Source: Microcaldota archaeon (GTDB lineage Archaea > Micrarchaeota > Micrarchaeia > Anstonellales > Anstonellaceae). Taken from it: DNA of 38,050 bases. The number at the start of each line of letters is the position of its first letter. Position 1 is the first letter of the stretch. This document shows, piece after piece, positions 3,327 through 25,536 of the stretch. Both the position numbers and the translations under genes were made by a program. The notes beneath the pieces are model-generated. The model had not been told where the DNA came from and did no database searches. It saw nothing but the letters and a program-made list of their open reading frames with translations. The stretch covers positions 1 through 38,050 of the forward strand of contig JAOAKI010000008.1 of NCBI GenBank assembly GCA_026413765.1, written 5' to 3'.

Positions 3327-5078
3327 TTATTTTCTCTTTTTTTCTTCAGGAAAGATTGGCTTGATGGAGATGCCTTTTTTGGCATGCCATCTTGGCTGCC
3401 GAGAGGGCGGGCGGCTTTCCTCTTCTTTGCCAGAAGATTCCTCAAATTGCAGCGACCTTTCGTATTCTGCGTCTATTGCTTGCTCTTGCTCCCTGAACTT
3501 AAGCTCTTTGTGGGCAAGAGGAGGCCGCACTGGCTCGAATGCGGCGCCGACTTCTTTGTACTTCTTTTCGAAGAATTTCTTGCCTCCAACTGCCAAGCCC
3601 AGGGCAATAAGCGCAAACAAGGCGGTGATCGAAAGCAGCAGAAGCTCATAGGGCGGCCTTTGCGCTACGCAGATAAAAGGAAACTCTTTGCAAATTTGTC
3701 TTTCCAACTGGCGCCAAATTTGTGCAAGCGAAGCTGGCTCTTGTGGGGGGGCGGGTGAAGGCAGCTCAGGGCTGCAGCTTTCGACATTGAAAAAGTCAAT
3801 TGTAGTGCAATTTGACACATCATAGCAGTGCTGAGTGCGATAGCCATCCTCTCCGCAAGGACCCCAAGGCTCGCAATATATGCTTACAACGCAAGTGGGA
3901 GTAGTCTGCGGTGGCTGCTGCGTCTGGTTGAACGGAACAAGGTTCAAAAATGGATTTCCTCGGTTGGCGGAAAGTATTATCGGGATTGAGAAGCTTTCCA
4001 CCCTGGATTGGGAAATTTGCCTGTTTATAGAATAGGTAAGGCTGCGCGACTCGCCTGGGGCAAAGACAGGGAAAATGAAAAATACGGTGGAGCCCTTGAT
4101 TGAGTTGTAAGGAGGGCTGAAAGTGATTTCTTGGATCTGCGCAAACTGTGGCGGAATCGTGTCTTGGAAGACGAAGTCATACATTGTGCATTCCGGACCA
4201 CCTTTGTTTGTCAAAGTAGTGATAAGGACCGAATAGTCTTGCGAAACAGTAAGGCTCCTTCGCACATTGACAGTACAGATGATGCCTCCTCCGAGATTGA
4301 CTTCGATGTCAACCGAGGGGAGCGGAGTGTAAGAAAAGCCGCCACCTCCACCGCCGCCAGCTGCGCTGGGTCCGCTTCCGCCGCCACCAGCGCCTCCGCC
4401 GCCACCTCCACCGCCGCCTCCACCACCGCCGCCTCCACCGCCTCCGCCGCCACCTGAGAAAGGCTTGCACTTGAGGTCGACAGAAAGAAAGTAGAGGGTA
4501 GGCGTGGCATTTTTTGTTGGAAGCATGAATTGGAAATCATAAAGCATTCCATCAAATCCAGGCTGGTCATCAAGAACAGGCATGATGAAGACAAGGTTTC
4601 CTGCAGTGTCTTGCAAAAATCCCATCTTGAAGGTATTGGGCATCGGTGAGAGAGTATATGCAGTAGGCACGTTCGTAAGCATCCCAAAGCTTGCAGTCTG
4701 AAAAGTTGAATTCTGAGTAAATGTCGCATATGCGCCCTGGGCAGGGTCGTTTATGAATTCTTCGAGGACAGAAAGATTGCCTGCTGTTGCGTTATAAATA
4801 ATCCCAGAGGAATTTGAAAAAAGAATATTCAGGATTTCAATTCCTTCAGTGCACATTGATCCCCCTGTCCCTATGGTCTTGTAAGAGACTTGGCCAGGGA
4901 TTGCGTTGATCGTCAGTGAGCTGAATGCCGAAAGCGAAGCTTGTCCAACTACTGCATGCCAGCTTGAATTTTTCGCTTGGACAGCAAGCGATGCATTCGT
5001 AAAATTGCCGCCTTCTGTGGAAATGTTTGCAGCAAAGAGAATAGAAGAAAGAAAGAGAAAGGCTGCGGCGAGCTTCAA
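3327..5078 (-). CDS. TM-anchored surface protein with poly-glycine tract and Cys-rich module
   Basis: No known family is recognised as a whole. A TTG at 5078 is preferred as start: it lies one base after the stop of the upstream gene, follows a GAGGCGAGGT stretch, and puts the signal peptide LKLAAAFLFLSSILFA at the very N-terminus. An ATG at 5138 would add 20 residues but bury the signal. The 583-residue product has an N-terminal domain beginning STEGGNFTN that resembles the small protein at 6846-7520, then 21 glycines (209-229) and further Gly/Ala/Ser linker. A beta domain follows, possibly DUF11-like. Next is a Cys-rich stretch (about 395-436) with a W-x2-C-x5-R-x3-C pattern resembling thrombospondin type 1, one TM helix (about 477-500) and a charged cytoplasmic tail. 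It is probably an envelope protein; its role is unknown. Confidence 0.8.
   Translation of the reverse strand: MKLAAAFLFLSSILFAANISTEGGNFTNASLAVQAKNSSWHAVVGQASLSAFSSLTINAIPGQVSYKTIGTGGSMCTEGIEILNILFSNSSGIIYNATAGNLSVLEEFINDPAQGAYATFTQNSTFQTASFGMLTNVPTAYTLSPMPNTFKMGFLQDTAGNLVFIMPVLDDQPGFDGMLYDFQFMLPTKNATPTLYFLSVDLKCKPFSGGGGGGGGGGGGGGGGGGGGGAGGGGSGPSAAGGGGGGGFSYTPLPSVDIEVNLGGGIICTVNVRRSLTVSQDYSVLITTLTNKGGPECTMYDFVFQDTIPPQFAQIQEITFSPPYNSIKGSTVFFIFPVFAPGESRSLTYSINRQISQSRVESFSIPIILSANRGNPFLNLVPFNQTQQPPQTTPTCVVSIYCEPWGPCGEDGYRTQHCYDVSNCTTIDFFNVESCSPELPSPAPPQEPASLAQIWRQLERQICKEFPFICVAQRPPYELLLLSITALFALIALGLAVGGKKFFEKKYKEVGAAFEPVRPPLAHKELKFREQEQAIDAEYERSLQFEESSGKEEESRPPSRQPRWHAKKGISIKPIFPEEKKRK
4392..4454 (-). 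repeat. GGN trinucleotide tract coding 21 glycines
   Basis: Twenty-one consecutive glycine codons mix GGC, GGT and GGA, followed by Ala, four Gly and then more Gly-rich sequence to about 4335. The mixed codons argue for an established linker rather than a very young single-codon expansion, though slippage could still change its length. Confidence 0.9.
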
Positions 5079-5079
5079 A

Positions 5080-6795
5080 TCAACTACCTCGCCTCCTCTT
5101 TTCTTTCTTGAAAAATAAAAAGTAAACTGCTGCAACAACCACTATTGCCAACGCTGCCAGCAAGGCAAACTCAACAACACCAAATTCTGCCTGGCGCTTT
5201 TCTATCTCAAGCTGGACAGAATAGGTGGCTTTTTTGGTCAGAAATCCTCTCCTTGCGCCATAATCTACTGAAACGGCTATCTCTTTGTTGAGCTCAAGCT
5301 CTTTTTGAGAAAGCTGCAGCGGGAATTCCTCCACGACCATCGAATAAGGCTCGATTTGCCTGATTGATGCGGCAGTGATCTTCATCGGCATATTCGATTC
5401 GTCGACTAATGTAAGCTGGACAAAGAAGAAGGCAGGCTCTTGCGCGTTGTTTTTAACTGAGACTGAAAGGGTCTGTTTTTCTGGGAAATATTTTGCATTG
5501 CGGACCGAGAGGTTGCTTTTGTCCACATATTCAACCGAAAGGAGGTTCCCAGTGAAAGTCCTGAACTCCTCAAGCGAGCGCTTTGAGCTGCCAAACTTGA
5601 CAAGAACGGTTGCAGTTATGTTGCCTTCCAAAACAGAGGATAGGTCCAATGGGTACTCAAGCCCAAATGACTGTCCTCTTTCAATCAGAGTTGTTTCCGG
5701 CTGGCCAAAAATCTTGAAGTCAGCCCCATTGACCCTTATTTTTACCTCAGCATTGAAATAAAGTGGTCCGCTGCCGCTGTTTTCCAAACCGACCATCACC
5801 TTTTTTGCACGACTGTCGTAGAAAACATCAGTGATTGAGAGATTGGGCTTGTAGGCAGGCAGAATAAAAACATCAAGCGCAAGCGTTCCTGACTGGGTTG
5901 CCGGCAATGCCTGCGCAAATTTCACAAGCACGCTCATCGATTTGGAAATCCCTTCCTGCGCAAATTCATTTCTCATCCTCTCGCGCATGTCATAGACTGG
6001 ATTTATCAGATCTTGCCCAATTAAAAGAACTCCTGCCACCTTGCCTGCCTTGACTTGCTCTTTGAGGAAATCATAAGTGACTTGCGGCACGAGGCGCCCG
6101 CTAAGAAGGATTGGCACTGGCCCAACCATTCCGTCTTCGATCGATGCCCCATCCGACATTATCAGCCTTTCAGCCGGATACTCTGAAAGCATCTCCCGCA
6201 CAAGGGCAACATTATCCTCGTATTTGTCCTCTCCTTTGCCGATTCTTTTTGAAGCAAGAGGTGAAAGCTCTTGCAGGACTTTGTTTTCAAGATAGCCGTA
6301 AAGTATGATTTTTTTGCCTGAAACGATTTTTTTTACTTCTTCCAGGTTATCTGAGTTTGCCAAAATCACATAAGCTTTTTTGGCATACGCATAAGGCAAC
6401 ACTGAGATTGCGCTGTCAGAATAAGATGCGTCAACAATAATGAAGCTGTCTGCGCCAGAAAGCTTTGCAAGCTCAAGATTGGTTTTGCCTCCGTCAGTGG
6501 ATTGGAAAAGCTCGACTTGGTTGTTTTGTGCCCTCAATTCGCTTTCAACAAGACCAGAAATCGGTGCGTCTGCCGACTGTATAAGAAATACTGCTTGGTT
6601 CGAGCCTATCTTAACAACAAAAATCTCTGGGGAGGAAGACTGAGACATGAAGCGCACAGGCATTCCTTTCACTGCCGCATAAAAAATGCCAGAAAGCACA
6701 TCTCTTCCGTCATGCGAGTTTATTGCAACGATTGAGGCAGAAAAAGAAAAAGAAAGTAAAATGAAAAAAGCTAAAACAAATGACAACCTACCCAT
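5080..6795 (-). CDS. TM-anchored surface protein with cell-wall-binding-repeat-2-like domain
   Basis: A 571-residue protein with signal peptide (residues 1-20), a large extracellular part, a C-terminal TM helix (about 539-560) and a KKEKRRR tail. Residues about 106-260 have the pattern of cell wall binding repeat 2 (CWB2): IIVDASYSDSAISVLPYAYA, then KKIILYG, then a RIGKGEDKYEDN segment like the RxxGxDRYxT signature. About 318-530 is beta-rich and CARDB-like (LSITDVFYDSRAKKV, LENSGSG). The ATG at 6795 follows a GGGAGGGT site. The next gene starts one base after its TGA, so the two are probably translationally coupled. CWB2 binds wall polymers in Firmicutes, but archaeal copies lack that target, so the partner here is unknown. 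Confidence 0.75.
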   Translation of the reverse strand: MGRLSFVLAFFILLSFSFSASIVAINSHDGRDVLSGIFYAAVKGMPVRFMSQSSSPEIFVVKIGSNQAVFLIQSADAPISGLVESELRAQNNQVELFQSTDGGKTNLELAKLSGADSFIIVDASYSDSAISVLPYAYAKKAYVILANSDNLEEVKKIVSGKKIILYGYLENKVLQELSPLASKRIGKGEDKYEDNVALVREMLSEYPAERLIMSDGASIEDGMVGPVPILLSGRLVPQVTYDFLKEQVKAGKVAGVLLIGQDLINPVYDMRERMRNEFAQEGISKSMSVLVKFAQALPATQSGTLALDVFILPAYKPNLSITDVFYDSRAKKVMVGLENSGSGPLYFNAEVKIRVNGADFKIFGQPETTLIERGQSFGLEYPLDLSSVLEGNITATVLVKFGSSKRSLEEFRTFTGNLLSVEYVDKSNLSVRNAKYFPEKQTLSVSVKNNAQEPAFFFVQLTLVDESNMPMKITAASIRQIEPYSMVVEEFPLQLSQKELELNKEIAVSVDYGARRGFLTKKATYSVQLEIEKRQAEFGVVEFALLAALAIVVVAAVYFLFFKKEKRRRGS

Positions 6796-7807: not shown

Positions 7808-7840
7808 TTTACTACCACAATAAAATATGAGGTGAAACAG

Positions 7841-8920
7841 ATGAATGTATTTCAGAAGAATGGGGGGAAAAATAATGATACTGAAGTAAACAATCTGAAA
7901 AACTCTAAGATCAGCACATTCTTTAATCGTATTTTGGGTAAGGAAAAGGGAGAAGAGAAGGACAATAGCAATCTGAAAAACTCGATCAGCACATTCTTTA
8001 ATCGTTTTTTGGGTAAGGAAAAGGGAGAAGAGAAGGACAAGAGGACAGAAGAAAATTTTGGCTCGGGTTGGGTTAGTTTTGAAGAAAAAGAAATCGAGAA
8101 GAAATCTCTGAAAAGTAGAATGAATATTAAGGAGAAAGTTGGAAAAATTAAAGGTTATATTAAGAATACAGGTAAATATGTTAAAACTGGTTTGTCGATT
8201 TTTGTCAATCCAGATATTGTATCAACTGGAGTTAAAGCAAGCATAATTGGTCTTGCGGCAGGAGGGATTGGAAACTTTCTTTACACTGGAAGATTTTCTG
8301 TCATTCAAAACGCTCTTATGAGCGCATCAAGTTGGATAGTTGCAAATCCGCTAATAACTGCAGGAGTAATTGTGGCGATTGCGTCGTTCAAGACGATAAT
8401 TGAAAAAATCTTTAAGCCGAAAAACGAGCTTACTGAAGAAAAAATAAACACGTACAGTGCAATAAAGAAAATAACAGAAAAGATTGGCCTTTCTTACTAT
8501 ATAATAAAACAGCCCCTATTGATTGCAGCAGGAGTGCTTGCAGGTGCTGACCTTGTAGTCGGCATGGCGCAAGGAGGGTTCTTTGGAGGTATTGGGAAGG
8601 TTATTTGGGATATTGGGAAAATAATTGGGATGGCAGGAAATGCCATCTATTCTAACCCAATACCAGTAATTGGAGCGATATTCGTGATGATGTCGATCAG
8701 AAAATTCCAGAAAAAAGTTTCTTCGACTGCTTCAAGAAAATTGGATGAAATGATTACTAAATTGGAAAGAGCAGAAGATAAGAAATTGAACGAGATTGCA
8801 TTTGAAGTCACAAAAGAGATGGCAGTTGACCCAGTTAAGGCGCTTCAATTGTTAGAGGAAAAAGTTGGGAGAGATGGAATTTCAAGGCTGAAGAATGACC
8901 CTCTAGAAGGGCGGCTTTGA
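7841..8920 (+). CDS. Multi-pass membrane protein of unknown function with duplicated N-terminal segment
   Basis: A 359-residue protein, not recognised. The first ~90 residues are polar and highly charged and contain a near-perfect tandem repeat of 24-25 residues (ISTFFNR.LGKEKGEEKD twice). A basic linker and several hydrophobic segments follow: around GVKASIIGLAAGGIGNFL, ANPLITAGVIVAIASF, LLIAAGVLAGADLVVGMAQG and NPIPVIGAIFVMMSI. The last ~70 residues form a charged helical tail. Codon use is richer in ATA, AAA and GGA than in the flanking genes. It is a single-gene unit on the opposite strand to its left and right neighbours. The composition and isolation allow a recently acquired or fast-evolving gene. 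Confidence 0.7.
   Translation: MNVFQKNGGKNNDTEVNNLKNSKISTFFNRILGKEKGEEKDNSNLKNSISTFFNRFLGKEKGEEKDKRTEENFGSGWVSFEEKEIEKKSLKSRMNIKEKVGKIKGYIKNTGKYVKTGLSIFVNPDIVSTGVKASIIGLAAGGIGNFLYTGRFSVIQNALMSASSWIVANPLITAGVIVAIASFKTIIEKIFKPKNELTEEKINTYSAIKKITEKIGLSYYIIKQPLLIAAGVLAGADLVVGMAQGGFFGGIGKVIWDIGKIIGMAGNAIYSNPIPVIGAIFVMMSIRKFQKKVSSTASRKLDEMITKLERAEDKKLNEIAFEVTKEMAVDPVKALQLLEEKVGRDGISRLKNDPLEGRL
7892..8040 (+). repeat. In-frame tandem duplication inside the membrane protein gene
   Basis: Copy 1 (7892-7965, 74 bases) and copy 2 (7970-8040, 71 bases) differ only by a 3-base TAA insertion and one A/T change. The reading frame is kept across both. The near identity points to a recent duplication. Confidence 0.9.
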
Positions 8921-24821: not shown

Positions 24822-24827
24822 TAGTGC

Positions 24828-24918
24828 GCCTCGATGGTGTAGTGGTCAGCATTCGAGATTGTCAATCTCGCGACCCGGGTTCGAAACCTCTCTGGAGGCG
24901 AATTTCCCGGTCGAGGCG
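24828..24918 (+). tRNA. tRNA-Asp (GUC) with T-loop intron
   Basis: Acceptor GCCTCGA/TCGAGGC with G73, as usual for tRNA-Asp. The anticodon stem CGAGA/TCTCG has loop TTGTCAA and anticodon GTC. The T stem CCGGG/CCCGG is separated by 26 bases instead of 7; removing a 19-base intron (24886-24904) restores the loop TTCGAAT. The D arm closes with GTGT/GCAT, including two wobble pairs. The mature length is 72 bases and CCA is not encoded. Two more flanking bases can extend the acceptor pairing in the precursor. Confidence 0.92.
24886..24904 (+). other. Non-canonical tRNA-Asp intron at position 59/60
   Basis: The precursor folds as CCGGG, TTCG, AAA bulge, CCTC, loop TCTG, GAGG, CGAA, TTT bulge, CCCGG. 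This is a strict bulge-helix-bulge: two 3-base bulges around a 4-bp helix. Cutting after the second base of each bulge yields exactly the standard T-loop. Confidence 0.85.
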
Positions 24919-25034: not shown

Positions 25035-25457
25035 TTAGTTTTTGACTTTCACTTTGACTTTGGTTCCTTTTGGCTCTTCTTTTGGAACTGTGATTTTTAG
25101 AACTCCGTCTTTGTATTCGGCTTCTGCCTTGTCTGCTTTCACTGCGGTCGGCAGCCTAATCATGCGCTCAAAGGACCCTGCTCGTATCTCTTTGCAGTAA
25201 TAGTTCTTTTGCTTTTCTTCTTTTTCTTCTTTTCTTTGGCCCGAAACCTTCAGGTAGTTTCCCTCGAACGTTATCTCTATCCCGTCGCCCTGGAAGCCTG
25301 GCGCGTTCATCTTGACGACAATGTTGTTGCCGTCATCATAGACATCGGTTGCAAGATCGGCAAGGCCAGGCCTAGTTGCAAAGAACGGGAAGTCTTCGTC
25401 AAAAAACCTCTCAAGGTCAAGCTCTTGGAATGGTTTCCACCTTACAAGACCCACCAT
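25035..25457 (-). CDS. hsp20: Small heat shock protein (Hsp20 / alpha-crystallin family)
   Basis: An ATP-independent chaperone that holds unfolding proteins. The 140-residue product has a short N-terminal arm (KPFQELDLERFFDEDFPFF), then an alpha-crystallin domain with DVYDDGNNIVVKMNAPGF, GIEITFEGNYLKVSGQRK, RMIRLPTAVKADKAEAEYKD, and GVLKITVPKEEPK, the conserved A-x-x-x-n-GVL-x-I-x-x-P signature. The charged C-terminal tail lacks a clear I-x-I motif. The start is ATG 25457 or GTG 25466, after GGGGGTGG. Unlike most first genes here it has a leader of 20-30 bases. Its TATA box is flanked by two matching dyads, which suggests tight repression outside stress. Confidence 0.93.
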   Translation of the reverse strand: MVGLVRWKPFQELDLERFFDEDFPFFATRPGLADLATDVYDDGNNIVVKMNAPGFQGDGIEITFEGNYLKVSGQRKEEKEEKQKNYYCKEIRAGSFERMIRLPTAVKADKAEAEYKDGVLKITVPKEEPKGTKVKVKVKN

Positions 25458-25485
25458 GCCAACCACCCCCGAAAAATTGCTTTGG

Positions 25486-25504
25486 TGTTAATATCATATT
25501 AACA
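25486..25504 (-). promoter_or_regulatory. Hsp20 operator 1 (dyad over the start site)
   Basis: TGTTAAT-N5-ATTAACA, a perfect dyad, covers the predicted transcription start about 27 bases downstream of the TATA box. The arms are identical to those of operator 2. Confidence 0.75.
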
Positions 25505-25509
25505 TAGGG

Positions 25510-25517
25510 TTTATAAA
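25510..25517 (-). promoter_or_regulatory. TATA box of hsp20
   Basis: TTTATAAA sits between the two dyads, which are 32 bases apart centre to centre, about three helical turns. Binding to either dyad would interfere with TBP/TFB or with polymerase loading. Confidence 0.7.
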
Positions 25518-25536
25518 TGTTAATACCAAATTAACA
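25518..25536 (-). promoter_or_regulatory. Hsp20 operator 2 (dyad over the BRE)
   Basis: TGTTAAT-N5-ATTAACA, a perfect dyad with a different spacer from operator 1, directly adjoining the upstream side of the TATA box where TFB would bind. Confidence 0.75.

Follow-up and report, generated by a model that had tools for sequence, protein, structure and literature searches.

The archaeal heat-shock transcription factors identified as of a 2022 review are Phr and HSR1 only (PMC9133787), and both are found in arCOG01684 (PMC5852551). Phr of Pyrococcus and Thermococcus is an autoregulated winged-helix heat-shock regulator with hsp20 as a target, and its site in the start region blocks the recruitment of RNA polymerase; the Phr operator has been given as TTTA / TGGTAA / AAAA (PMC9133787). 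HSR1 of Archaeoglobus fulgidus is also autoregulated and also targets hsp20, using the dyad operator CTAAC-N5-GTTAG (PMC9133787). The thermosome is in neither regulon, that of Phr comprising Hsp20 and an AAA ATPase (PMC10653856). Two further systems serve as references here. The CIRCE operator of HrcA reads TTAGCACTC-N9-GAGTGCTAA, and HspR/HAIR of actinobacteria is a repressor encoded with the DnaK operon that it controls.

The system described here consists of 19-bp dyads in chaperone promoters of a Micrarchaeota genome, together with a linked winged-helix protein of 149 aa, in the following called REG. REG is similar to Phr in being an archaeal winged-helix protein; its autoregulation, its control of hsp20 and its use of a site in the start region are inferred. 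As for Phr and HSR1, the putative operator is present in the promoter of the regulator itself (32/32 closer orthologues). The sites cover hsp20 as in Phr and HSR1, but also the thermosome, dnaJ and grpE-dnaK promoters, and the site search gave none outside these four chaperone loci. Thermosome, DnaK and DnaJ have not been described as HSR1 targets, and HSR1 has hsp20 as operon partner whereas REG has grpE-dnaK. The putative REG operator, TGTTAATAY-N-RTATTAACA, is neither the Phr nor the HSR1 operator, and the arms of the HSR1 dyad are oppositely directed with a different spacing. When the REG family profile was compared with chain 2p4w, an ArsR-family protein which we take to be the Phr structure, the match covered 39 residues with an E-value of 0.14, and several other wHTH proteins ranked higher. 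The likeness to Phr and HSR1 pointed out in a preliminary description of the locus held for the inferred mode of working, while membership of the same family is unproven at the sequence level, the HSR1 sequence not having been compared.

The likeness to HrcA/CIRCE lies in the gene order regulator-grpE-dnaK-dnaJ (dnaJ in part of the REG genomes), in autoregulation, which for REG is inferred, and in dyads at Hsp70 and Hsp60 promoters. An HrcA origin of REG was considered and dropped: the HrcA domain PF01628 was found in 0/39 genomes, including this one, against 7/14 positive control genomes. Furthermore, no HrcA model was among the profile matches of REG members, REG also differs from HrcA in its length of 149 aa, and the REG operator, read directly, is not CIRCE. 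HspR shares with REG that it is encoded with the DnaK operon, but it is of the MerR type whereas REG matches winged-helix models of the ArsR/TrmB/MarR type. Neither this operator nor any Micrarchaeota heat-shock regulator was found in a search of the open-licence literature.

Dyads in chaperone promoters of the genome

The genome is a Micrarchaeota MAG of 840,152 bp in 17 contigs, and the window, i.e. the whole stretch of 38,050 nucleotides that was analysed, is its contig C11. According to the preliminary description, TGTTAAT-N5-ATTAACA occurs twice, 32 bases apart centre to centre, with one copy over the predicted hsp20 transcription start and the other over the BRE. This held: both copies are exact matches and have the hsp20 TATA box between them (Table 1). 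Dyad B extends from behind the TATA box to about the predicted start, and dyad A covers the BRE because it abuts the TATA box; the start itself is predicted from TATA spacing and has not been mapped. In transcriptional order, the promoter consists of dyad A, TTTATAAA, CCCTA, dyad B, about 28 bases and ATG, this ATG being the likely start codon rather than the GTG. The Hsp20 protein matches NCBIfam Hsp14 with an E-value of 1.2e-22, which is below the cut-off. The 7+5+7 dyad of the preliminary description was confirmed and extended, as conserved bases continue past the 7-base arms. Its suggestion that a dimeric regulator contacts the arms is still an inference without binding data.

Table 1. Positions of the dyads, of hsp20 with its TATA box, and of REG
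Feature	Position	Strand	Basis and remarks
Dyad B, TGTTAATATCATATTAACA	window 25486..25504	no strand	exact match to TGTTAAT-N5-ATTAACA; perfect 9+1+9 palindrome
Dyad A, TGTTAATACCAAATTAACA	window 25518..25536	no strand	exact match; directly upstream of hsp20 TATA box, over BRE
Predicted hsp20 TATA box, TTTATAAA	window 25509..25516	-	direct reading; between dyads A and B
hsp20, controlled gene (inferred)	window 25035..25466	-	ORF; Pfam PF00011 (HSP20) E 4.5e-23; start GTG 25466 or ATG 25457
hsp20 promoter dyads	window 25486, 25518		pattern search
dnaJ promoter dyad	C3:126583		pattern search
Thermosome promoter dyads	C16:7852 and 7883		31 bp apart around TATA box
REG-grpE-dnaK promoter dyads	C3:36442, 36462, 36493		spacings 20 and 31
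REG, 149-aa winged-helix protein	C3:36521-36967 (= L010:4122-4568)		first gene of REG-grpE-dnaK operon

Within the window, 2 matches were seen when 3 mismatches were allowed, against 1.46 expected. This count is limited to the window and uninformative, although both matches are exact. Three checks had been proposed in the preliminary description: a genome scan for the dyad near the TATA boxes of chaperone and proteasome genes, a search for a regulator of the winged-helix type that has the dyad in front of its own gene, and a comparison of orthologous hsp20 promoters. All three were run with favourable outcomes, and the interpretation as a whole is supported.

The genome was scanned by pattern search. 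Exact copies of TGTTAAT-N5-ATTAACA number 4, where base composition would give about 0.005, and all are in chaperone promoters, i.e. those of hsp20 (2), dnaJ and the thermosome. Two copies with one mismatch precede the operon of the wHTH gene REG, grpE and dnaK. Allowing up to 2 mismatches gave 8 places, compared with 3 for the reversed pattern, and all 8 fall in the four chaperone promoter regions; every exact or near-exact copy is adjacent to a TATA box in a chaperone promoter. The chaperones were identified by profile search (GrpE 131.5 bits, DnaK 756 bits, Cpn60/TCP-1 617 bits, and DnaJ), with the thermosome and DnaJ proteins also above the NCBIfam cut-offs. No dyad was found at other heat-shock genes of this genome using the looser pattern TGTYAAYRN3YRTTRACA with 2 mismatches. 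Since this pattern added only three weak places, none at chaperone promoters, with a control of 7 against 10, a wider regulon is not claimed.

Three other features of the window were observed. In a secreted-looking protein (ORF 3327-5138, - strand), a long run of glycines is encoded by a GC-rich tandem repeat at 4338-4455. A membrane-protein-like ORF (7832-8920) has a 75-bp unit repeated twice near its start, at 7891-8040, and a tRNA-Asp (GTC) lies at 24827-24901, just past the 3' end of hsp20 on the opposite strand.

REG, a winged-helix protein

The regulator search proposed in the preliminary description led to REG, which heads the grpE-dnaK operon and has two or three dyads in its promoter (three within 2 mismatches). 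In Pfam, REG matches wHTH models only: HTH_5 (25.2 bits, cut-off 22) and HTH_24 are above cut-off, and TrmB, MarR and other models are below. HTH_5 is matched by 16/25 aligned REG members. The AlphaFold2 model (pLDDT 88.8) predicts a winged helix followed by a C-terminal helix of 48 residues, which would suit dimerisation. The closest structural neighbours in VIA-align are of the TrmB type with Z about 9-10.6, reflecting the common wHTH only, and the absence of Phr from that list carries no meaning. The neighbours of REG in the PDB are ordinary TrmB/ArsR/MarR-type proteins, and a Foldseek search of the model against the PDB gave no match at E 0.001 or better. By sequence models and fold, REG is a winged-helix DNA-binding protein of the ArsR/TrmB type.

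The named close relatives of REG are all from Candidatus Micrarchaeota MAGs, except four records labelled merely 'archaeon'. Across the phylum, 222 of the 295 sampled genomes have a REG homologue (E at most 1e-6). The homologue adjoins grpE-dnaK in nearly all loci read; at one locus (L136) hsp20 alone is found beside it. The dnaJ gene is within the REG operon in some genomes and separate in others.

Two observations on REG and its surroundings are added here. Cys27 lies where helix 1 ends. At least 90% of the 25 REG sequences in the alignment share it, and a cysteine is present at the matching place in the homologues of families f12 and f13; a redox input is possible. Additionally, the REG promoter has as its third dyad an upstream one (L010:4043-4061) that faces a divergent gene pair at L010:3416-3991 and overlaps a TATA-like stretch oriented toward it; dyad and pair together span about 35815-36460 of contig C3. 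One gene of the pair encodes a LonB-type protease and the other a small lipoprotein-like protein, and the pair is conserved divergently in several relatives. Co-regulation of Lon is possible.

Dyads and promoter layout in related genomes

The 20 genomes of the family contain 34 dyads with no more than 1 mismatch, whereas the reversed-pattern control gave 4. Matching the site coordinates to gene positions placed all 34 upstream of REG (20), hsp20 (6), dnaJ (6) or the thermosome (2). In the closer orthologue group the dyad is present in 32/32 REG promoters, compared with 0 for the reversed control (at most 3 mismatches). Bases 8 and 9 of each half-site were free in the search pattern, and among 112 half-sites from REG promoters base 8 is A in 100 and base 9 is T or C in 88; the true site is therefore close to TGTTAATAY-N-RTATTAACA. 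Besides REG, Hsp20 genes of families f3 and f10 are preceded by sites that are exact or have 1 mismatch.

Coverage of the family chaperone promoters is incomplete, as a dyad was found in 2/15 thermosome promoters tested, plus two hsp20-thermosome tandems. One site (G063:C15) precedes a short ORF that is not a chaperone gene. One genome of family f8 (G079) has two clear hsp20-REG sites and five further sites with 1 mismatch, of which three were inspected and none is at a chaperone gene. The further sites are likely chance matches in an AT-rich genome.

The comparison of orthologous hsp20 promoters showed that the two-dyad layout is kept, with different spacers, in another species of the same genus (G017; Hsp20 78% identical at the protein level), where the dyads are 31 bp apart around TTTATAAA. 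The thermosome promoters of both species have the same layout around the TATA box. The dnaJ promoters have the BRE-side dyad only: among the 9 genus-level genomes in which dnaJ was found, the dyad is directly before the TATA box in 8, and in the ninth dnaJ sits in the REG region. The same TATA box abuts the dyad in the hsp20 promoter of G017 and in most genus-level dnaJ promoters. The dyad position upstream of TATA is conserved among hsp20, dnaJ, thermosome and REG promoters. Within a REG promoter, neighbouring dyads have spacings of 20 (9 times), 31 (8), 32 (2), 34 (2), 51 (2) and 44 (1), and 20, 31-32 and 51 bp are close to whole helical turns. In six genomes the REG start codon is inside a dyad, mostly with a TATA-like box upstream, which would fit a leaderless transcript with a covered start site, as inferred from sequence alone.

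Where REG diverges, the pattern is different. In the 43 genomes of family f2, which have a divergent REG homologue, TGTTAAT dyads are at background (17 against 19 in the control). In families f12 and f13 (homologues of 60-75 bits), the related TGTCAA-N7-TTGACA, also 19 bp long, is exact in 9/27 REG promoters and present with at most 1 mismatch in 16/27, compared with 18/3000 random stretches of the same loci. At three f2 loci (L134, L135 and L149), divergent REG and grpE share an intergenic TTTAACA-N3-TGTTTAA; read as AAC-N5-GTT, it agrees with the HSR1 box of Archaeoglobus in polarity and spacing. The operator type tracks the REG lineage, which is a correlation resting for f2 on few cases (three promoters).

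Proposed mechanism and alternative explanations

The sites, their exclusive association with chaperone genes, the linked regulator and the conservation of sites, layout and gene order are shown. The reading that we consider likely is that the dyads are operators of REG, acting as a dimeric, autoregulated repressor of hsp20, dnaJ, the thermosome gene and REG-grpE-dnaK that is released on stress; binding by REG, dimerisation, repression and the stress signal are all inferred. One REG dimer would occupy each 19-bp dyad, and a distance of 31-32 bp between dyads, or about three helical turns, would place two dimers on the same face of the DNA. With one dimer over the BRE edge and the second between the TATA box and the start site, access of TFB/TBP and RNA polymerase would be blocked. 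In unstressed cells REG would keep the four chaperone loci, including its own operon, repressed, and it would let go upon heat or protein-folding stress. The place of REG in the operon suggests feedback through DnaK/GrpE, and simple thermal unfolding would explain the release just as well. These archaea are uncultured, and neither binding nor expression nor heat-shock data are available for them.

The first alternative, which we regard as unlikely, is that REG binds the dyads as an activator or dual regulator recruiting TFB/TBP on stress. Archaeal activators can help TFB from immediately upstream of the TATA box, and this is where the lone dnaJ dyad is found. Blocking is better suited by the second dyad between TATA and start site in the hsp20, thermosome and REG promoters, and by those REG promoters having their sole dyad over the start codon. 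The position of the sites favours repression, but the single BRE-side dyad of dnaJ also allows activation, and there are no expression data to decide.

Secondly, the dyads could be the heat-shock operator of another regulator, e.g. a Phr/HSR1 relative, with REG as a mere neighbour. The winged-helix class is common, and binding by REG is inferred without binding data. This explanation is nevertheless very unlikely, as REG is linked to grpE-dnaK in relatives, the promoters of its close orthologues always carry the dyad, and where REG diverges its promoter has other dyads in place of the TGTTAAT dyad.

It is even less probable that the dyads function as RNA hairpins, i.e. as an RNA thermometer or attenuator. 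They are inverted repeats near translation starts, but the arms are conserved in sequence, beyond complementarity, between genes and species. This function was dropped in view of dyad A, which precedes the TATA box and should escape transcription. Chance AT-rich palindromes, for which only the near-expected 3-mismatch count of the window speaks, are all but excluded by the exact genome-wide counts, the exclusive chaperone association and the conservation.

Returning to REG as a repressor, a bolder reading can be given, to which we incline only slightly: that REG represents an undescribed, phylum-wide family of archaeal heat-shock repressors, separate from Phr/HSR1, which jointly controls the Hsp70, Hsp60, Hsp40 and Hsp20 genes of Micrarchaeota and holds the position of bacterial hrcA. 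Its operator would have changed between lineages (TGTTAAT dyads, TGTCAA dyads, TTTAACA-N3-TGTTTAA) with the place beside grpE-dnaK kept.

As the REG protein and its 19-bp sites are small, in vitro tests of the model need no culture of the organism. Judged by its sites, REG is a candidate for a third archaeal heat-shock regulator, without a clear sequence match to Phr and in a DPANN phylum, and these sites tie Hsp20, DnaJ, the thermosome and GrpE-DnaK together. The archaeal Hsp70 system is widely held to be of bacterial origin, and an indigenous repressor at the place of hrcA would therefore show how an acquired operon was wired into TBP/TFB promoters. If the model is true, this would be a heat-stress control system new for this archaeal branch, present in most of the phylum beside the main chaperone genes.
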